Position numbers and translations under genes: made by a program. From assembly GCA_019923695.1 (NCBI GenBank), contig JAHXGO010000006.1, positions 1-33,249 of the forward strand: DNA of 33,249 bases, read 5' to 3'. Numbering within the stretch: the stretch's first letter is position 1; the number at the start of each line of letters is the position of its first letter. Under the pieces are notes generated by a model. That model was not told the DNA's origin, did no database searches, and saw nothing but the letters and a program-made list of their open reading frames with translations. This DNA comes from Candidatus Liptonbacteria bacterium. GTDB taxonomy: Bacteria > Patescibacteriota > Minisyncoccia > UBA6257 > Colwellbacteraceae. Shown piece after piece: positions 450 to 29,567 of this stretch.

Positions 450-1196
450 TTAAGTTTTTGCCGCGACCGCAACGATTATTTTTTTTACTCCGTTTTGTTT
501 AAGGATTCTGACAGCTTCGTTTATTGTCGCTCCAGAAGTGAAAACATCGTCAATTAAAATTACGGACTTACCTTTTAGTTTTTCTTTTACAGTTAAAAAA
601 TGATTTTTAGCCGAAAAATAATTCATAACTGAAAAGCAGTTTGATGTTTTTTCTATTTTGAATGCGTTTTTTACGTTTTCCTTTCTTTGTTTATTGTTTT
701 TAAGATTAATTTGTTTTTCTGTAGCTTTAATTCGTTTCAATATTTTATTTTCAATTTTTAATCCGAGTTCTTTGCCTAAAATTTTTGCCAATTCTTCGGA
801 CTGATTGAACCCGCGCTCTCTTTGTCTTATGAAATGAAGAGGGATCGGCACAATCAAAAATGAGTCATCTATTTCTTTTATGATATTGGATTTTTGGAGA
901 TGTATTATAATGAATTTTGTTAATGGTTCGGCGATTTTTATGAATCCTTCGTATTTGAAGTAGTGAATTAATTTTTGGATTGGTTTGTTTTCGTAATTTA
1001 CGGCAGCTGCTAAAATAAAATTTTTATGATGAAAAATTAAGGAATTCACGGTAATTGATTGATGACATTTTTGGCATAAAAAATTCAGTTGTTCTGAATT
1101 TTCAAGATATCGGCGACAGTTAAGACAGAGCGGCGGGAAAATAATATCAAAAACAAAATTTATTATTTTTTTAACCGGGAGAAAGAAACGAATCAT
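450..1196 (-). CDS. comF: ComF family phosphoribosyltransferase / amidophosphoribosyltransferase-like
   Basis: N-terminal Cys pairs (PPLCLNC, CQKC), PLH..RERGFNQSEELAK and the PRPP motif VILIDDVFTSGATINEA. Confidence 0.92.
   Translation of the reverse strand: MIRFFLPVKKIINFVFDIIFPPLCLNCRRYLENSEQLNFLCQKCHQSITVNSLIFHHKNFILAAAVNYENKPIQKLIHYFKYEGFIKIAEPLTKFIIIHLQKSNIIKEIDDSFLIVPIPLHFIRQRERGFNQSEELAKILGKELGLKIENKILKRIKATEKQINLKNNKQRKENVKNAFKIEKTSNCFSVMNYFSAKNHFLTVKEKLKGKSVILIDDVFTSGATINEAVRILKQNGVKKIIVAVAAKT
582..635 (-). repeat. Three consecutive 18-bp repeat units in-frame inside comF
   Basis: Minus-strand units TTTTCAGTTATGAATTAT / TTTTCGGCTAAAAATCAT / TTTTTAACTGTAAAAGAA; unit 618-635 matches unit 12027-12044 at about 13/18 positions. 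Confidence 0.6.
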
Positions 1197-1270: not shown

Positions 1271-1357
1271 ATATTGAATCACAGGTTCAATATGTCAAAA
1301 CTTTCTTTTGTCATAGATTGTCTTTTGATCATAAATTGTCCTTTGACCGCAATAATG
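1271..1357 (-). repeat. Intergenic modular repeat: hairpin (1271-1293) plus three 18-bp units (1304-1357)
   Basis: ATATTGAA-tcacagg-TTCAATAT hairpin followed by tcttttgtcatagattgt / cttttgatcataaattgt / cctttgaccgcaataatg. Confidence 0.75.
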
Positions 1358-3685: not shown

Positions 3686-3976
3686 ATGGCATTCGTTCTT
3701 GAAGAAGAAAAAAAGGGAATAAGTCTTTTTAATATTTTAATTATTGCTTTAGTTTTTGGCGCCCTCTTAATTTCTTGTTATTATTTATTTTTCGCGCCTG
3801 TTCCGCTGATTGATTCCGCTTTTAAAACCGAGGTGCAGTTCGTTTCTGAAGTTTCAAAAATTACTTTTGATCCTTCTTTAGTCACTGATTCGGAGGTTTT
3901 CATTTCTTTGGAGGAATATGTAAAACTTCCTGAATTGAGAGATCCCGGTCGGTCAAATCCTTTTGGATCATTTTAA
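3686..3976 (+). CDS. Small single-TM protein, PilP-like position
   Basis: 96 aa, one TM, C-terminal LPELRDPGRSNPF; located between pilO and pilB. Confidence 0.6.
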   Translation: MAFVLEEEKKGISLFNILIIALVFGALLISCYYLFFAPVPLIDSAFKTEVQFVSEVSKITFDPSLVTDSEVFISLEEYVKLPELRDPGRSNPFGSF

Positions 3977-3980
3977 AAAA

Positions 3981-5804
3981 ATGGATAATAAAAAATTAGC
4001 CCAAGGTCTTATCAAAAACGCCATTTTGTCCGAAGAATTGGCTCAAAAACTTTTGGTTGAATCTTCGCAGATTAATAAATCTTTGGAAAGCATTCTTTAT
4101 ATTCGTCGGTTGGTTGATGAAGTTTCAGTTGCTAAAGTAAAAAGCGAAATTACTGGAGTGCCTTATCAAAAAATAAAATCTGAAGAAATTTCTGAAGAAA
4201 TTTTAAAATTTATTCCCGAAGAAACCGCGATAAATTATAAAATGGTTCCTTTAAAAATGGAAAAAGATATGCTTATTGTGGGGATGATTGATCCTTTAAA
4301 CGCCAAAACGCAGGAAGCTTTGCGTTTTATCAGTCAACAGAATCGTTTGCAAATAGGAATTTATCTTATCACGCCGACTGATATGGAATTGGCTTTAAGA
4401 AGATATTCTCCTTATCAAACTGAAATTCAGGCGGCAGTTAAAGCTTTGAATATAAAATCCGGGGTCGGACTTTCTACTTTGCAAAAGCCGGTTTCTTTGG
4501 AAGCCGGTTCTTCGGTTTCCGATGAAGCGCCGATAATTAAAATAGTTTCTTCAACCTTAAGGGCGGCAATTGAACAAAAAGCTTCGGATATTCATATTGA
4601 GCCGCAAAGAGATCGTTTAAGAATAAGATTCAGGCTGGATGGCATTTTAAAAGAAGTGGCTTCTTTTCCGCTTGAACTTCATCAGCCGATAATCTCCCGG
4701 GTAAAAATACTTTCTGAACTAAAAATTGATGAGACTAGAATTCCTCAAGATGGTCGTTTTAGAACAGTTATCTTTGGCAGGGACATTGATTATAGGATTT
4801 CCACTTTTCCTACTCCGGTTGGTGAAAAAGTGGCTATCCGTGTTTTGGATCCGAGTATTGGTTTAAGAAAAATAACTGATTTGGGAGTGGTCGGAAAAAA
4901 CGCCGATCTTATAAAAGAAGGACTTGAAAAACCCTTTGGGATGATTTTAATTACCGGGCCGACTGGTTCTGGAAAAACAACCACTCTTTACGCAATTCTT
5001 CGGATTTTAAATAATGAAGGAGTTAATGTTTTGAGTTTGGAAGATCCGGTTGAATATGTTATTGACGGAGTAAATCAATCTCAAATTAAGGCTGATATCG
5101 GTTATACTTTCGCTTCTGGTTTAAGGCAGGCAGTCAGGCAAGACCCCGATATTATTTTAGTCGGAGAAATAAGAGATAAGGAAACAGCCGGGTTGGCAGT
5201 TCATTCAGCTTTAACTGGCCACATTGTTTTGTCTACTTTACATACCAATAATTCTTATGGTGTTATTCCAAGACTTATTGATATGGGAGTGGAGCCGTTT
5301 TTACTTCCAGCGTCGCTTAATTTAATGGTTGCTCAAAGACTGGTAAGAAAATTATGTAACGAGTGTAAACAAGCGGAAACCGCTTCTTTGGAGATTCAAG
5401 AGATTATTAAAAACGAAATTTCAAAATTACCTAAAGAAGTTTTAGGCGGACTTTTGGTTAAAGGACAATCTGTGGTTAATAAACAATCCGCAGTTATCGA
5501 GCGGCAGACTGTTCACTATACTGAACAAGATATTATTCGATATGCTGAATCAGCAGTTCATTATAGACCGGTTGGTTGTAAAATTTGTAAGGGGAAGGGG
5601 ACAAGCGGAAGAGTTGGGCTTTATGAAATTTTGAAAATGACCCGAGGAATCGATGAAATTATTAATTCTGGCCCAACAGAAGGAAAATTAAGAGACGAAT
5701 CAAGAAAACAGGGTATGATAAGTTTGCGTCAAGACGGAATATTGAAAGCATTAGATGGTTTAATTTCCATTGAAGAAGTTTTAAAAGAAACAGCCGAAAC
5801 ATAA
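3981..5804 (+). CDS. pilB: Type IV pilus extension ATPase PilB (GspE family)
   Basis: GPTGSGKTTTLYAIL Walker A, SLEDPVEY, DPDIILVGEIRDKETAGLA, C-terminal CxxC pairs. The ORF track starts at TTG 3963; ATG 3981 is more likely. Confidence 0.95.
   Translation: MDNKKLAQGLIKNAILSEELAQKLLVESSQINKSLESILYIRRLVDEVSVAKVKSEITGVPYQKIKSEEISEEILKFIPEETAINYKMVPLKMEKDMLIVGMIDPLNAKTQEALRFISQQNRLQIGIYLITPTDMELALRRYSPYQTEIQAAVKALNIKSGVGLSTLQKPVSLEAGSSVSDEAPIIKIVSSTLRAAIEQKASDIHIEPQRDRLRIRFRLDGILKEVASFPLELHQPIISRVKILSELKIDETRIPQDGRFRTVIFGRDIDYRISTFPTPVGEKVAIRVLDPSIGLRKITDLGVVGKNADLIKEGLEKPFGMILITGPTGSGKTTTLYAILRILNNEGVNVLSLEDPVEYVIDGVNQSQIKADIGYTFASGLRQAVRQDPDIILVGEIRDKETAGLAVHSALTGHIVLSTLHTNNSYGVIPRLIDMGVEPFLLPASLNLMVAQRLVRKLCNECKQAETASLEIQEIIKNEISKLPKEVLGGLLVKGQSVVNKQSAVIERQTVHYTEQDIIRYAESAVHYRPVGCKICKGKGTSGRVGLYEILKMTRGIDEIINSGPTEGKLRDESRKQGMISLRQDGILKALDGLISIEEVLKETAET
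5464..5570 (+). repeat. 18-bp unit array plus hairpin-like tail inside pilB
   Basis: GGACAATCTGTGGTTAAT / AAACAATCCGCAGTTATC / GAGCGGCAGACTGTTCAC / TATACTGAACAAGATATT, then cGATATGCTGAATCAGCAGTTCATTATA. Confidence 0.65.
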
Positions 5805-5805
5805 A

Positions 5806-5978
5806 AAATCTCAAATCTAAAATTTCAAATCTCAAAAACACATCTTAAAGTTAAAATCTTATGGAAAATGATTACAAAAAACAATTTTATCAAATTTGTA
5901 GATTTGAGATTTGATTTTTGAGATTTGAGATAAACTATGGTTGGCAAAAAAGATTATCTGCTATAAAATGTAAATAAT
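5806..5978 (+). repeat. TIR-bounded element, short copy A
   Basis: AAATCTCAAATCT...AGATTTGAGAT inverted ends; 89-nt left block identical to 10561-10649 and 84-nt right block with one mismatch to 10751-10834. Confidence 0.88.
5941..5969 (+). promoter_or_regulatory. Candidate sigma70-type promoter upstream of pilT, carried in the repeat
   Basis: TTGGCA-N17-TAAAAT, 30 nt upstream of the pilT ATG. Confidence 0.5.
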
Positions 5979-8396: not shown

Positions 8397-8888
8397 ATGA
8401 AAAACTCAAAAAAAGGATTTACTTTGGTTGAAATGTTCATTGTTATTCTGGTAATCGGAATTTTGTCTGGAATTGTTTTTAGAGGAGCCGCTGGCATTCA
8501 AGCAGCAGGCAGAGACACTCGCAGGATTTCTGATATTCGCTCGATTCAATTAATGCTTGAACAATTTGCCGATATTTGCGGTCATTATCCGGGGACATTT
8601 ACTGCGGATACTTGTAGGGTGTCTGCGGGACAGCCATCAATTCCTATAATTGACCTTGCTGACACTTTAGTAACTGCTGGTATTGTTACTGAATTAGTAC
8701 ATGTTCCAAATGATCCCCATAGAGGGAGATCTTATATGTATACTGTAGGCGCAGGAGGCACTTCTTATGTTTTACGAGCGCAGCTTGAGCGTCGTCATCG
8801 GGTATTAAATGAAGATATCGATGGTACCGTATTAGGCGTCAATTGCGCTGATGATGCTCCTAATTTCTTTTATTGTGTCCGGCCATAG
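8397..8888 (+). CDS. Type IV pilin / GspG-like pseudopilin (major pilin candidate)
   Basis: KKGFTLVEMFIVILVIGILSGI class III signal peptide; Cys pairs in the C-terminal domain. Confidence 0.88.
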   Translation: MKNSKKGFTLVEMFIVILVIGILSGIVFRGAAGIQAAGRDTRRISDIRSIQLMLEQFADICGHYPGTFTADTCRVSAGQPSIPIIDLADTLVTAGIVTELVHVPNDPHRGRSYMYTVGAGGTSYVLRAQLERRHRVLNEDIDGTVLGVNCADDAPNFFYCVRP

Positions 8889-8900
8889 AAAACTTTAATC

Positions 8901-9022
8901 CGATATATTGAGTGGCGTGTTGTCCACTATAAATTATCCTTGCAACCGATGGATAATCTGTGGCCAAAGGATAAATTATAGCTAATGGTCAACTTATAAT
9001 CGAAGAGCAATCTGTATATAAG
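8901..9022 (+). repeat. Intergenic modular repeat: hairpin plus 18-bp units
   Basis: cgatatattgAGTGGcgtgttgtCCACTata, then GGATAATCTGTGGCCAAA / GGATAAATTATAGCTAAT / GGTCAACTTATAATCGAA / GAGCAATCTGTATATAAG. Confidence 0.75.
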
Positions 9023-9032
9023 ATTTAATTTA

Positions 9033-9920
9033 ATGTTTTTTTTCTATTTTCTTATTTTCTTTTTTGGGGCAGCTGCGGGGAGTTTCTTGAATGTTTTAAG
9101 TTTGCGTTATAATCCGGACAAAAATTTGTTTTATAACGCTGGCGGACGATCTCGCTGTTTAGGTTGCGGGGAAAAGCTTTGTTGGTATGAACTTATCCCG
9201 CTTTTTAGTTTTTTTATTCAAAAAGGCCGCTGTCGGCATTGTCGTCAGCGGCTTTTATGGCAGTATCCCTTGATTGAAGCGCTTTGCGGATTGCTTTGCG
9301 TTTTTATCACTTTTAAAATTTTGGAAACTTCTTTGATTTATTTTTTGCCTTTATCAACCCAGGTTTTTTTGATAATTTTATGGTTTTTGATATTTCTTTC
9401 CCTTGTTTTAATGTCGCTTATTGATTTTAAGCTTCAGATAATTCCCGATGAGATAAATATTTTTTTAATAGTTCTGGGGTTTTTAAATCTTCTTGTTTAT
9501 TATTATTTATTTCCTTTTTCAGACATTATTGATTTAAACCTCAAAACTTCTTTTTTGGGAAGTTATGCTTTGCTTTTCAGGTTTTCCGATATTTTGTGGT
9601 TTAATTTTTTACTCGGAGCTGTTTTCGGAGGATTATTTTTCGGTTTTCTTTATTTTATAACTAAGGGGCAGGGGATGGGTTTTGGCGATGTTAAATTGGC
9701 TTTTTCTCTTGGTTTAGTTTTTGGCTGGCCGGATATTTTGATAATAAGTCTTTTAGCTTTTATAATCGGTTCGTTTGTTGGTTTGTTTCTTATGATAAGA
9801 CAAAAGAAAAAAATGAAAGACCTTCTTCCTTTTGGGCCTTTTATCGCTTTATCTTCTTTTTTGGTTTTTTTGTTTGGCGCCCAAATTTTAGGATTTTATT
9901 TCAAACTTTTTTTGGTTTAA
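9033..9920 (+). CDS. pilD: Prepilin peptidase (A24 family)
   Basis: GSFLNVLSLRY, zinc-type CxxC pairs, LIDFKLQIIPDEIN, GMGFGDVKLAF. Confidence 0.95.
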   Translation: MFFFYFLIFFFGAAAGSFLNVLSLRYNPDKNLFYNAGGRSRCLGCGEKLCWYELIPLFSFFIQKGRCRHCRQRLLWQYPLIEALCGLLCVFITFKILETSLIYFLPLSTQVFLIILWFLIFLSLVLMSLIDFKLQIIPDEINIFLIVLGFLNLLVYYYLFPFSDIIDLNLKTSFLGSYALLFRFSDILWFNFLLGAVFGGLFFGFLYFITKGQGMGFGDVKLAFSLGLVFGWPDILIISLLAFIIGSFVGLFLMIRQKKKMKDLLPFGPFIALSSFLVFLFGAQILGFYFKLFLV

Positions 9921-9983: not shown

Positions 9984-10556
9984 ATGAATAAGTTTGCGGT
10001 TAAAAAACAATTTTTGGTTGAAGGACAGATAAAAAAAAGAAAGGGCTTTACTATTATCGAGGTTATTATAACGATCGGGATAATTGGAATTATGATATCG
10101 TCAATGGGTATAGTGATTGATAGACAAGAGCTTGTTTTTAATCTGGATCATCATAAATTAAGAGCTTTAATAAGCAGGGCAAAATCATTGACAATGTTCG
10201 GAGTATTTCAGGAAAAACCCGGGTCCCGATTTTGCGGTTATGGAGTAGAAATTAACGCTTCAGAAGGAAGGGCGGTTATTTTTAAGTCATTTAGCCGTGT
10301 AGAATGTCCTCCGGCCAGTTTTGGCGATTTTATTAGACGAGAACCTCTTTCCGGCGAATTAAACGAGTTAAGACTTGATAGGTTTTTAAGCTTTGAAGAA
10401 TCGGTTTATATTTTTTTTATTCCCCCTGATCCTAGTGTTCATATTTATGATATCCGAGGAATCCGAACTAATTCATTTACTATAAGAATGATAAACGAAA
10501 TCGGGAATGTTAGAAAAATAAATGTTAATTCCGCCGGCTTAATAGATTTATTGTAA
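9984..10556 (+). CDS. Pseudopilin
   Basis: KKRKGFTIIEVIITIGIIGIMISS. Confidence 0.8.
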   Translation: MNKFAVKKQFLVEGQIKKRKGFTIIEVIITIGIIGIMISSMGIVIDRQELVFNLDHHKLRALISRAKSLTMFGVFQEKPGSRFCGYGVEINASEGRAVIFKSFSRVECPPASFGDFIRREPLSGELNELRLDRFLSFEESVYIFFIPPDPSVHIYDIRGIRTNSFTIRMINEIGNVRKINVNSAGLIDLL

Positions 10557-10560
10557 AAAG

Positions 10561-10834
10561 AAATCTCAAATCTAAAATTTCAAATCTCAAAAACACATCT
10601 TAAAGTTAAAATCTTATGGAAAATGATTACAAAAAACAATTTTATCAAAAGAGAAGGGCAAAAAAATTTTAAAAGAAGCCAAAGAAATCGCCAACATTTT
10701 AGCCGCCAGCATCATTACAATGAAAAATAAAAGAAAGATTTAAGATTTTATTTGTAGATTTGAGATTTGATTTTTGAGATTTGAGATAAACTATGGTTGG
10801 CAAAAAAGATTGTCTGCTATAAAATGTAAATAAT
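10561..10834 (+). repeat. TIR-bounded element, longer copy B, with four-helix-bundle ORF debris
   Basis: Same 89-nt and 84-nt blocks as copy A, with 101 extra nt encoding ..GKKILKEAKEIANILAASIITMKNKRKI*; the start MENDYKKQFYQ is out of frame with this tail. Confidence 0.85.
10797..10825 (+). promoter_or_regulatory. Candidate promoter carried by repeat copy B
   Basis: TTGGCA-N17-TAAAAT. Confidence 0.45.
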
Positions 10835-12007: not shown

Positions 12008-12061
12008 TTTATGTTTATGGCCAACGGACAATCTATGACTGAAAGACAACCCAACGATTTA
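12008..12061 (+). repeat. Three 18-bp units overlapping the 5' end of the PilX-like ORF
   Basis: TTTATGTTTATGGCCAAC / GGACAATCTATGACTGAA / AGACAACCCAACGATTTA. Confidence 0.65.
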
Positions 12062-12475
12062 AAAAAACACAAGAACAGCGAACTACAGACTCATTATATT
12101 AAACTCGAAACTCACCAGAGAAAGGGTCAAATAATGATTTTTACCGCAATAGTCTTTATCGGAGCTATTATGATGATAGGTGTTTTTGTCGGTCTTTTGG
12201 TTCTTTTTGGGTTTGCTCAATCAACTAATATACCTCTTTCATCTGAATCTATTTTTGCCGCTGACGCTGGCATTGAATGTGTGATTAATAAAAAATTTGG
12301 AATTATTGAAGGATCCAATTGTCCAGAAGCAGAAACAATAAAAACCCTTGGTAACGGCTCAAGATTTCAATATCGACAGCTATATGATAATAATACTTGG
12401 GTTGCCATAGGTATGGATAGAAAAGGAAGAACAGTAAGGGCTTTACAAATAAGGTTTGAAGAAGTACGATTATAA
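12011..12475 (+). CDS. PilX-like minor pilus protein
   Basis: KGQIMIFTAIVFIGAIMMIGVFVGLL followed by AADAGIECV. N-terminal about 35 aa are repeat-derived; start uncertain. Confidence 0.6.
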   Translation: MFMANGQSMTERQPNDLKKHKNSELQTHYIKLETHQRKGQIMIFTAIVFIGAIMMIGVFVGLLVLFGFAQSTNIPLSSESIFAADAGIECVINKKFGIIEGSNCPEAETIKTLGNGSRFQYRQLYDNNTWVAIGMDRKGRTVRALQIRFEEVRL

Positions 12476-15553: not shown

Positions 15554-16498
15554 ATGATGACAACAAAACAAAGCCTTGATTTATCGAATCCGAAGTTCAT
15601 TATCGGCCATAAGAAACAGCAAGAGTTTTTTAATCGTTTAATTAAAGAAGGTAAGTCAGGCGGCAGTTATATTTTTTTTGGGGAAAGCCAGATAGGTAAA
15701 TTTACTTTTGCCAAATTTTTAGCTACCAAGCTATCAACCGGTATTTCAGAACAGAAAAGTTCTTCTTTACAATCAAAAGACGACTCTTGGTTAAAAGGCA
15801 ATTTGTTTGATACTTTAATTATTGATGTTTTTCAAGACCAAGAAGAAAATCAAGAAGAAAAAGAAGAAAGCATTGGGATTGATAAAATAAGAAAAATAAA
15901 GATTTTTCTTAGTCGAAAACCAATTTATTCTCCATTAAGAACAGTTATTATAAATGAAGCTGATAGGTTAACTTTAGAAGCTCAAAACGCTCTTTTAAAG
16001 ATTGCCGAAGAACCTTCGATTTTAAGTTTGATAATTCTTGTTTTGCCGAATCCGGAAGCTTTATTTTCTACTCTTACTTCAAGGTTTAAAAAGATTTATT
16101 TTAGTCGATTAACTTTTCAAGAGATAAAATTATGGCTGATAGAAGAATTTAAAGTTGAATCAAAAATAGCTAATGCCGCATCAATTTCTTGTTTCGGCAA
16201 GCCCGGGTTAGCTCTGGAATTGATTACAACTGAAGGGCAGTTTCAAACCGAAAAAGTTGGTTATACTAAAGTTTCGTCTTGGCAGACTGATCGTCTTGCC
16301 CAATATAATCAATTAAAAACCATTGGCGATTATCGTTTTTTTATTAAAAAGCTTTTAATAGAGCTTTACGGCGTTCAAAATAGAGACAAAATAAGAAATG
16401 TCGATTGTCTCAAAGAATTATTAAAAAGATTGGTTTTTATTGAAAGTTTAAATACTAATAAAAAAATTCAACTTCAATCAATTTTATGGAACCGTTAA
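15554..16498 (+). CDS. holB: DNA polymerase III delta' subunit-like
   Basis: FFGESQIGKFTFAKFLA, TVIINEADRLTLEAQNALLKIAEEPS, LVLPNPEALFSTLTSRFKKIYF. Confidence 0.82.
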   Translation: MMTTKQSLDLSNPKFIIGHKKQQEFFNRLIKEGKSGGSYIFFGESQIGKFTFAKFLATKLSTGISEQKSSSLQSKDDSWLKGNLFDTLIIDVFQDQEENQEEKEESIGIDKIRKIKIFLSRKPIYSPLRTVIINEADRLTLEAQNALLKIAEEPSILSLIILVLPNPEALFSTLTSRFKKIYFSRLTFQEIKLWLIEEFKVESKIANAASISCFGKPGLALELITTEGQFQTEKVGYTKVSSWQTDRLAQYNQLKTIGDYRFFIKKLLIELYGVQNRDKIRNVDCLKELLKRLVFIESLNTNKKIQLQSILWNR

Positions 16499-23382: not shown

Positions 23383-24537
23383 ATGTCAATTTTACTTTTG
23401 AGAACTAATTTAGATTTTCAGCCGGAAGAATTTTCTTCTTCATTAAGGGCAAAGAATTTTATTTCCGCCATTAAATTATTTGGCAGAAAAAACAAAATAG
23501 TTGTTTTAAGCCATCGGGGAAGGCCGAATTTGTCCCGCAAGCTTTCTTTAAATCCCTTTGTAAAACCGATTTCCGATTCATTGGGTTATCCGTTGGCTGT
23601 AGGTCATCCGTTGGCTGTAAAAAAAGCTGTAAAAAAACCGGTTTATTTTATTGATGTTAAAAAAGTGGGTTTTATAAAAACTAAAAACCAAATTAAAAAC
23701 TCGGCTAATGGAAGCGTTTTTTTGCTGGAAAATTTGCGTTTTTTCCCCGGTGAAGAAAAAAATAGCAGGGGATTGGCTAAAAATCTGGCTTCTTTAGGAG
23801 ATATTTATATAAACGATGATTTTGCCAGCTCTCATCGAAAACATGCGTCTTTGGTTGCGATAACCGAATTTTTGCCTTGTTTTGCCGGTCCGAGTTTAAT
23901 GAGAGAAATCAACGCCTTAGGAAAAGTTTTAAAGAAAACTAAAAAACCTTTTGTTGTTATAGTCGGCGGAATAAAAATTTTGGATAAACTTCAAATAATC
24001 CAAAATTTTATTCGCCGAGCGAATTTTGTTTTAACCGGCGGGGGAGTGGCTAATACTTTTTTAAAAGCAAAAAACATAGATATTGGGAATTCATTATTTG
24101 AAAAATTAATGGTTAAAAAAGCGGGGTCTTTGATTAATTCTTCTTTAGGCAGAAAAAAAATTATACTGCCGCTTGATTTTAAAAAAGAAAAAAACCGAAA
24201 TTTAGATATTGGTCCGAAAACTATTAAAAAATACGCGGAAATTATTAAAGAGGCGCGAACTATTATTTGGGCCGGGCCAATGGGCTACATTGAAGATAAA
24301 CGATTTATCAAAGGCACAAAAACGATTATCAAAGAAATTATAAAAAGTCGCGCTTTTTCAATTATTGGCGGCGGTGAAACCACTTCAGTTATGCCAAAAA
24401 TCAAAAATCAAAAGTCAAAAGTTTTTATAAGCGCTGGCGGCGGCGCAATGTTAGAATATTTGGCAGGTAAAAAAATGCCGGCAATTGAAGCTTTAAGAAA
24501 AAATGGTAAAATTTTTACATATAAAAATAAAAAATGA
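23383..24537 (+). CDS. pgk: Phosphoglycerate kinase, divergent
   Basis: VVLSHRGRPN, LLENLRFFPGEEKN, ASLGDIYINDDFASSHRKHAS, LDIGPKT, WAGPMG, GGGETTSVM. Confidence 0.88.
   Translation: MSILLLRTNLDFQPEEFSSSLRAKNFISAIKLFGRKNKIVVLSHRGRPNLSRKLSLNPFVKPISDSLGYPLAVGHPLAVKKAVKKPVYFIDVKKVGFIKTKNQIKNSANGSVFLLENLRFFPGEEKNSRGLAKNLASLGDIYINDDFASSHRKHASLVAITEFLPCFAGPSLMREINALGKVLKKTKKPFVVIVGGIKILDKLQIIQNFIRRANFVLTGGGVANTFLKAKNIDIGNSLFEKLMVKKAGSLINSSLGRKKIILPLDFKKEKNRNLDIGPKTIKKYAEIIKEARTIIWAGPMGYIEDKRFIKGTKTIIKEIIKSRAFSIIGGGETTSVMPKIKNQKSKVFISAGGGAMLEYLAGKKMPAIEALRKNGKIFTYKNKK
23590..23625 (-). repeat. Two 18-bp repeat units in-frame in pgk
   Basis: CCGTTGGCTGTAGGTCAT / CCGTTGGCTGTAAAAAAA. Confidence 0.7.
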
Positions 24538-25865: not shown

Positions 25866-25997
25866 AGCAAATCGCGGGTTTGATATGCTAAAACATTATT
25901 TCTTGGTTAGAAATTGTCCATTGGTCAGAAATAACCTTTTGGCTATAGGTTGTTTTTCAGCCATAACGAATGATATGTCGCTCAATATATCAAATTT
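25866..25997 (-). repeat. Best-preserved modular repeat: head, four 18-bp units, tail
   Basis: Units ttcttggttagaaattgt / ccattggtcagaaataac / cttttggctataggttgt / ttttcagccataacgaat (25900-25971), tail gatatgtcgctcaatatatcaaattt. Confidence 0.8.
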
Positions 25998-26463: not shown

Positions 26464-26501
26464 GTTAAAAATTATAATATTTTATGTAAAATGTCAAATA
26501 A

Positions 26502-27060
26502 TTGTATAACCGCACCCACTTTTGCACTCTTGAGACCTTAGAGGTATTTTATTTTGTAAAAAATATAGCGATGACCTTTGTTTTAGTGATAACATAAATT
26601 GTACTGGTGAAAGTTTGTTTTGGAAAGCGTAATGGACTCTTTCAGTATTGTAAAATATCAAATAATCAATAAGTTTGCGGTTGAATTCATCGGGATTCAA
26701 AAGAAGAAAAGAATGGTAATCAATAAATTCTTCTTGAATAGTCCGATTGAATCTTTCCAGATGGGCATTCATCTTTTTTGTCGCCCTTTTCCCATTGGCT
26801 TTTCCAATAAAATAAAGTTCTCCTTTTGACCTTGAAAGCGTCCATTGCGGCCTCAAGGCCGTACTTCTCCCAGAAAACCAAGACGCGAGCTTTCTGATGA
26901 GCTTTTGTTGTAATCATATACCGATATCTTAGCGCATCATTGTAGACTGTGATAAACCCTTTGATACCGGTATATCTGCAATGTATTTTATTGAAAAACT
27001 CCATGAATCAGCGAAATTCTACGGCTTCATGGAGTGCAAGATGTATGTGAGGTTATGCAA
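26502..27060 (-). mobile_element. Internally deleted insertion sequence (IS481/IS3-like transposase), 559 bp
   Basis: Imperfect TIRs TTGTATAACCGCACCCACTTTTGCACTC and TTGCATAACCTCACATACATCTTGCACTC; N-terminal HTH fragment (MITTKAHQKARVLVFWEKYGLEAAMDAFKVKRRTLFYWKSQW) joined out of frame to an rve C-terminal fragment (MNAHLERFNRTIQEEFIDYHSFL...YNTERVHYAFQNKLSPVQFML). Confidence 0.85.
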
Positions 27061-29150: not shown

Positions 29151-29567
29151 ATGCAAGAAGAAGAATTAAAAAAATACCAAAATAAGCTGACTGAGTTGAA
29201 AAAAAAGTTGGAAAAAGAAATTAAAGAAACTCCGGACATTATTGATTATGGAACCGAAGCGGGAGAAGACGAAGAAGTTGATGAGGCAATTTCCGCCGAT
29301 GTTCAAGCCAGCCTTAAAAAAAACTTTAAAAGACGCCTTGAAGATGTTAAATCCGCTCTTATTAAAATCAAGGAAAAAACATACGGTCTTTGTGAAAAAT
29401 GCAAAGGTGAAATTGAAAAAGAAATTTTAAAAATCGACCCCGAATCCCGTCACTGTAAAAAGGAAAAAACATACGGTCTTTGTGAAAAATGCAAAGGTGA
29501 AATTGAAAAAGAAATTTTAAAAATCGACCCCGAATCCCGTCACTGTAAAAAACATAAATCTATTTAA
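29151..29567 (+). CDS. DksA/TraR C4-type zinc finger protein with duplicated C-terminal finger half
   Basis: EEVDEAISADVQASLKKNFKRRLEDVKSALIKIKEKTYGLCEKCKGEIEKEIL; coiled coil plus CxxC. Confidence 0.88.
   Translation: MQEEELKKYQNKLTELKKKLEKEIKETPDIIDYGTEAGEDEEVDEAISADVQASLKKNFKRRLEDVKSALIKIKEKTYGLCEKCKGEIEKEILKIDPESRHCKKEKTYGLCEKCKGEIEKEILKIDPESRHCKKHKSI
29370..29551 (+). repeat. Perfect 90-bp tandem duplication
   Basis: Positions 29370-29461 are identical to 29460-29551 (period 90), encoding a 30-aa repeat. Confidence 0.97.

Follow-up and report, generated by a model that had tools for sequence, protein, structure and literature searches.

The window analysed here comprises the whole 33,249-nucleotide stretch of contig JAHXGO010000006.1 (contig C19 in our numbering) from a Candidatus Liptonbacteria bacterium, whose 422-kb genome is 95.9% complete and lies in 22 contigs. 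The host gene under study, pilB (3981..5804, + strand), begins at an ATG at 3981, a longer TTG start being possible at 3963, and encodes a GspE/PilB/T2SSE ATPase with MshEN and T2SSE domains (Pfam E=2e-15 and E=8.6e-123, respectively), in which the ATPase is intact. A homologous ATPase was found in 61 of the 61 genomes searched (our own and 60 relatives), and the best PilB matches that carry a name come from Patescibacteria, including Colwell-, Wolfe- and Harrisonbacteria. An earlier note, made from the sequence alone, had suggested that repeat-family DNA sits in frame within this gene, between the two cysteine pairs of the protein (C459/C462 and C533/C536). This was borne out by a 42-bit match to a family whose unit is the 18-bp sequence GGACAATYTATGGYCAAM, and it is this block and its family that we describe below.

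The family was defined with an 18-position periodic weight matrix (PWM), trained at 26 bits, with which all 22 contigs were scanned. The pilB match lies at 5450-5496 and can be extended by phase to 5507. On the evidence of the PWM match, a gap in orthologs and a coil of low predicted confidence, we place the inserted block at 5454..5507 (+ strand), running from unit phase 9 to phase 8, its exact ends being inferred from the phase seen across the whole family. The block is 54 bp long (3 x 18 bp), codes for 18 residues (LVKGQSVVNKQSAVIERQ; 492-509 when numbered from the ATG at 3981) and reads CTT, TTGGTTAAA, GGACAATCTGTGGTTAAT, AAACAATCCGCAGTTATC, GAGCGGCAG, ACT, the first and last triplets lying outside it. 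It is thus made up of a partial unit, two full units (GGACAATCTGTGGTTAAT at 5463..5480, + strand, 19.3 bits; AAACAATCCGCAGTTATC at 5481..5498, + strand, 6.0 bits) and a second partial unit, and not of the four units with a hairpin-like tail, spanning 5464-5570, that had been proposed earlier. The supposed tail at 5508..5570 (+ strand; TVHYTEQDIIRYAESAVHY) does not match the family and is not significantly repeated anywhere else in the genome, and its residues align to those of the ortholog loop, identifying it as the native PilB loop TVHYTEQDIIRYAESAVHYRP. Its proposed kinship to an intergenic copy at 8901-8930 also failed, as the likeness between 5508-5570 and 8891-8945 is at about chance level (p ~0.05) and the actual intergenic copy occupies 8939-9015.

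Comparison with orthologs showed that the repeat-coded stretch is missing in all 29 aligned PilB sequences, and that the flanks are conserved (the Cys pairs, KLPKEV... and GCKICKGKGT). The ortholog gap that had been predicted does exist, with an inserted length of about 18 residues in place of 30-35. The whole loop exceeds that of the closest genus by ~20-21 residues and that of most other orthologs by ~28; since the closest genus has a slightly longer PilB loop, 18 inserted residues together with small differences fit. In an AlphaFold2 model of PilB (16 sequences; mean predicted local distance difference test score, pLDDT, 77.7), residues 498-510 form a coil with pLDDT < 50 between the Cys pairs and overlapping the insert, in keeping with the surface loop that had been anticipated there. 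The pilB insertion is an 18-residue flexible loop added between the Cys pairs.

The family to which the block belongs is spread through the genome. A search with the consensus pattern gave 29 matches as against 1 for the reversed pattern, and the PWM found 75 elements of at least 24 bits (2 in the reversed genome), of which 64 reached at least 26 bits (1 in the reversed genome). When one half of the contigs served for training and the other for testing, the counts at the 24-bit threshold were 39 vs 0 and 36 vs 1. With about 75 copies in 422 kb the density is one per 6 kb, while three relatives (G014, G020 and G022; 427-600 kb each) have only 0-3 elements of at least 24 bits. A two-unit pattern was not found in 243 other genomes of the order, nor in 378 further genomes sampled across the phylum. 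The pattern had no exact match in IMG/VR, and a four-unit query had no match in phage or plasmid collections; a viral, phage or plasmid source was rejected on these empty searches. Nothing relevant on repeats of this kind in Patescibacteria came up in the literature, of which the coverage was incomplete.

It was found that 60 of the 75 elements lie wholly within called open reading frames (ORFs), and two more in conserved genes that the simple ORF caller had missed. ORFs make up 87% of the genome, so that genes are hit at roughly the rate expected by chance. Forty-one genic elements could be compared with orthologs, namely those in a non-terminal position of a gene with at least two orthologs, and for 33 of them at least 5 residues were missing from every ortholog, as in EF-G, enolase, TyrS, IleRS, RecR, MurF and RpoA. 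Relative to orthologs, 6 residues are added in MnmA, TyrS, RecR and a protein that, from its sequence, we take to be YchF; 12 in IleRS, DnaJ and enolase; 13 in EF-G; 18 in MurF, RelA/SpoT and ComF; and 30 in one further gene. Essential genes, such as those for EF-G, IF-2 and RpoA, are among the hosts. A count that was blind to the repeat put the lineage-specific insertions that are exactly 6 residues long at 18 in this genome, as against 1, 2 and 1 in three relatives; slightly looser flanks raised the number to 21, with 11 of these overlapping an element that had been detected.

Reading frames were counted for elements of at least 22 bits. The three sense frames are used 26, 9 and 5 times (GQSMVK, DNLWSK and TIYGQR types) and two antisense frames 14 and 16 times (LTIDCP and FDHRLS types), while the sixth, stop-bearing frame was used by none of the elements within genes. 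Hence it is the DNA unit that is kept, and not a protein sequence, and the host tolerates the resulting peptide. Since the unit is 18 bp long and mostly free of stops, each insertion adds 6n residues and the gene stays readable. Around the elements outside called genes, blastx gave no conserved gene broken by an element.

The copies have a common anatomy. They are 18n bp long, mostly with n=1-3, and both ends are usually in one fixed unit phase: 73 of 87 elements start at phase 4-8, and the commonest end phase is 7-10. Their layout can be written TTTAYGRYYAAM (GGACAAYYTAYGRYYAAM)n GGACAAYYYA, the inserted DNA then measuring 18(n+1) bp, with n=0, 1 and 2 accounting for 75 of the 87. The left flank is rich in T, unlike the internal units (T 0.85 at -1, 0.81 at -2, and ~0.5 at -4 and -5, where the unit has A), and the right flank has A at a frequency of 0.52 at +2, where the unit has T. 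The empty site reconstructed from these flanks is TTTTT^AAA. The left and right ends of one element were no more similar than shuffled pairs, and there is thus no sign of a target-site duplication.

Units differ mostly by transitions, with a transition to transversion count of 33061:8798 over all pairs. No transversion was seen at unit positions 0, 1 or 7, and the purine/pyrimidine (R/Y) pattern hardly varies at positions 0, 1, 5 and 7. Several other non-coding repeats of the genome are also dominated by transitions (e.g. 10:0, 15:1 and 21:5), and a MutS family V domain was detected in none of 21 genomes (our own, G000, and 20 relatives), as against 11 of 14 control genomes. This decay is most simply read as the outcome of transition-biased mutation in the absence of mismatch repair. 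The unit does hold complementary stretches, yet no pairing covariation was found within or between units. An RNA hairpin was rejected on this ground, the scarcity of transversions being better explained by the MutS-less background.

Taken together, we put a probability of roughly 0.8 on reading the pilB block as a single copy of a translated, non-autonomous insertion repeat that is dispersed over the genome, consists of 18-bp units and decays mostly by transitions. The earlier suggestion of a selfish repeat turned into protein stands as far as a dispersed repeat made protein is concerned, as shown by the ortholog gaps and by the many similar genic elements; the epithet selfish is a matter of interpretation. 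We infer that the copies are passengers, moved in trans by a sequence-specific cut-and-insert activity that joins them between TTT and A. Arrays might grow through the target-like YYTA at the end of each unit, beside which a new unit could land, with some local slippage besides. Purifying selection would then remove copies that stop or break a gene, and the remaining copies would change chiefly by transitions, which is what the absence of MutS from the lineage leads one to expect.

Several observations weigh against this reading. Movement itself was not seen, as there were no two strains differing by a copy to compare; no mobilising enzyme was identified, and no RVT_1-type reverse transcriptase was found in the genome, in which 35 genes of at least 110 residues are without relatives. 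Eight of the 41 testable elements have no gap or only a small one; some of these are probably chance matches near the threshold (e.g. C4:8415, given as contig and position), and others fall where the alignment is poor. That no element was counted in the stop frame partly reflects how ORFs were called. Lastly, units are only slightly more alike within arrays (64% identity) than between them (57%), and most arrays are thus not recent products of slippage.

A more specific mechanism, which we regard as possible but unlikely, is that of a quantised insertion element, in which an enzyme outside the known transposase families would add whole 18-nt units at TTT^AAA, with phase-fixed ends and no target duplication. 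The addition could, for example, be templated in a telomerase-like manner at a T-run primer. If true, this would amount to translatable DNA being spread through essential genes.

Many dispersed copies could also be expected of a DNA site that the host uses, such as an uptake sequence or a nucleoid or partition site, which would be under selection and tolerated in genes. The genome does have competence and pilus genes, and the constant R/Y pattern at positions 0, 1, 5 and 7 would suit such a site, but it is also explained by transition-biased mutation. Moreover, copies arrive as insertions of 18n bp and not by point mutation, they are strongly decayed (~57% identity between units), and the two-unit pattern occurs in no other sampled genome, making a host-used site improbable.

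Mobilisation by a resident Y1 (RAYT/IS200-like) transposase, with single-strand insertion 3' of a T-rich motif, was considered as well. One Y1/RAYT-type gene is present in the genome (C7:8577-9275), and, as in repetitive extragenic palindrome (REP)/RAYT systems and miniature inverted-repeat transposable elements (MITEs), the repeats are short, dispersed and non-autonomous. IS200/IS605 elements insert 3' of a T-rich motif and duplicate no target, a style that fits the duplication-free insertion 3' of TTT at TTTTT^AAA; no conserved hairpin and no cognate enzyme were found for the family. On either side of the Y1/RAYT gene, and once within its coding sequence, lies a different palindromic REP, TCTTACGATGTCGGGAATCGTAAGATT. 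That the gene has REPs of its own argues against it as the mover. The 18-bp unit is not the palindrome that flanks the gene and, unlike REPs, lies mostly inside genes, and the 18-bp family is missing from other genomes that carry Y1 genes. We therefore hold it improbable that this transposase moves the copies. The REP itself, TTACGATGTCGGGAATCGTAA, was recorded at C7:8554, C7:9104, C7:9304 and C5:6573, flanking the RAYT-type transposase gene and inserted in frame within it (SYDVGNRK).

Tandem repeats arising independently in each gene by slippage, without any dispersal, are known from Borgs. There, in-ORF tandem units (amino acid tandem repeats, aaTRs) keep the frame, have flanking partial units and form flexible protein segments, and each locus gains its repeats on its own, with strong selection for perfect repetition of the amino acids (PMC9879509). 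The 18-bp family likewise has tandem units within ORFs with flanking partial units, and some of its arrays are homogeneous (C12:5691, C4:9441). Unlike the locus-private Borg repeats, however, one imperfect unit, in one phase, is common to 75 loci and predicts held-out contigs, and single-unit copies occur in YchF, MnmA, TyrS and RecR. Slippage is refuted by the unit common to loci, and we give it very little credence. Excision from mRNA, or skipping by ribosomes as with the mitochondrial byps, would leave the protein unchanged and might account for elements in essential genes such as those for EF-G, IF-2 and RpoA, but it is highly improbable, as byp-like elements are untranslated and indifferent to frame and stops, whereas here the frame is always kept and the stop-bearing frame unused in genes, no pairing covariation was seen, and the window has no Rfam intron or ribozyme match.

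Eight further copies lie within the window. In comF (- strand, 450-1196) a three-unit element (586..643, + strand, 39.3 bits) coincides with a clean 18-residue gap in orthologs, and ortholog gaps were also found for elements within holB, encoding DNA polymerase III delta' (15766..15806, + strand, 35 bits), and within the phosphoglycerate kinase gene (PGK; element 23582..23621, - strand, 41.8 bits; gene on the + strand). Two elements are at the N termini of ORFs, one in a pilin-like ORF at 9984-10556 (9991..10027, + strand, 34.9 bits) and the other in ORF 12011-12475 (MFMANGQSMTERQP...; element 12014..12053, + strand, 48.4 bits). Two are intergenic: one between comF and the next gene, 1371-2462 (1303..1352, - strand, 54.6 bits), the spacer being confirmed by blastx of the neighbours, and the other between a pilin-like gene (8397-8888) and gene 9033-9920 (8939..9015, + strand, 66.8 bits), in what blastx also showed to be a spacer. 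The last (25895..25966, - strand, 64.6 bits) is placed where no convincing gene lies, there being only a 62-residue ORF.

Other repeats were noted in the course of the work. A MITE-like family of ~200 bp, with ends TGTAA...TTACA and internal deletions, has copies at C1:31938-32067, C2:7633-7829, C12:41701-41931, C12:4377-4574, C12:32352-32544 and C17:19106-19218, two of which directly adjoin long 18-bp arrays. An origin of the 18-bp family from these elements was rejected: two of the longest arrays adjoin copies (C1:31938, C2:7634), yet beyond this no kinship between the sequences was seen. The window also contains a perfect 90-bp tandem duplication (29370-29549) in a DksA/TraR-like zinc-finger gene (29151-29567), which doubles the zinc finger with identical DNA, and transposase fragments (26494-27004), which are nearly identical to a stretch at C18:14046-14133 and have diverged relatives at C1:18678-18868 and C20:4001-4106. 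A dispersed intergenic block with runs of the heptamers AAATCTC/ATTTGAG has copies that are 82-100% identical (window 5803-5978 and 10558-10834; C1:38334-38426, C1:14430-14627 and C11:4-195). A long array of ~78-bp tandem units, with roughly 76-84% identity between shifted copies, lies in a 393-residue ORF at C21:13885-14953. In the relative G020 a different dispersed palindromic word, CCCATGGCTCCC, was counted 17 times as against ~0.05 expected, and may be a sister case.

Among known systems, PARCELs are dispersed intragenic coding repeats with possible mobility, carrying a 25-residue protein motif in ORFs without an assigned function (PMC2996958); in contrast to their single protein motif, the 18-bp family is read in five frames and is found in core essential genes. 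Rickettsia palindromic elements are dispersed small repeats that occur in frame in unrelated genes, are translated, and are tolerated by the host protein (PMC10969869). The 18-bp family is similarly dispersed, in frame, in unrelated protein-coding genes, but by comparison of features it has none of their ~100-150 bp length, palindromic hairpin or conserved peptide; its unit is modular (18n), without a conserved hairpin, is read in five frames, and resides in a Patescibacterium. It works as these elements do, yet is a distinct family, modular and much smaller. Repeats that invade genes in frame have their best-known examples in Rickettsia, and the family in Patescibacteria is an independent case with a unit several times smaller and with hosts that count among the most conserved cellular proteins, raising the mechanistic question of what inserts exactly 18n bp at TTT^AAA. 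The copies constitute a natural insertion scan of EF-G, RpoA, IF-2, aminoacyl-tRNA synthetases and others, marking where core proteins tolerate new loops.
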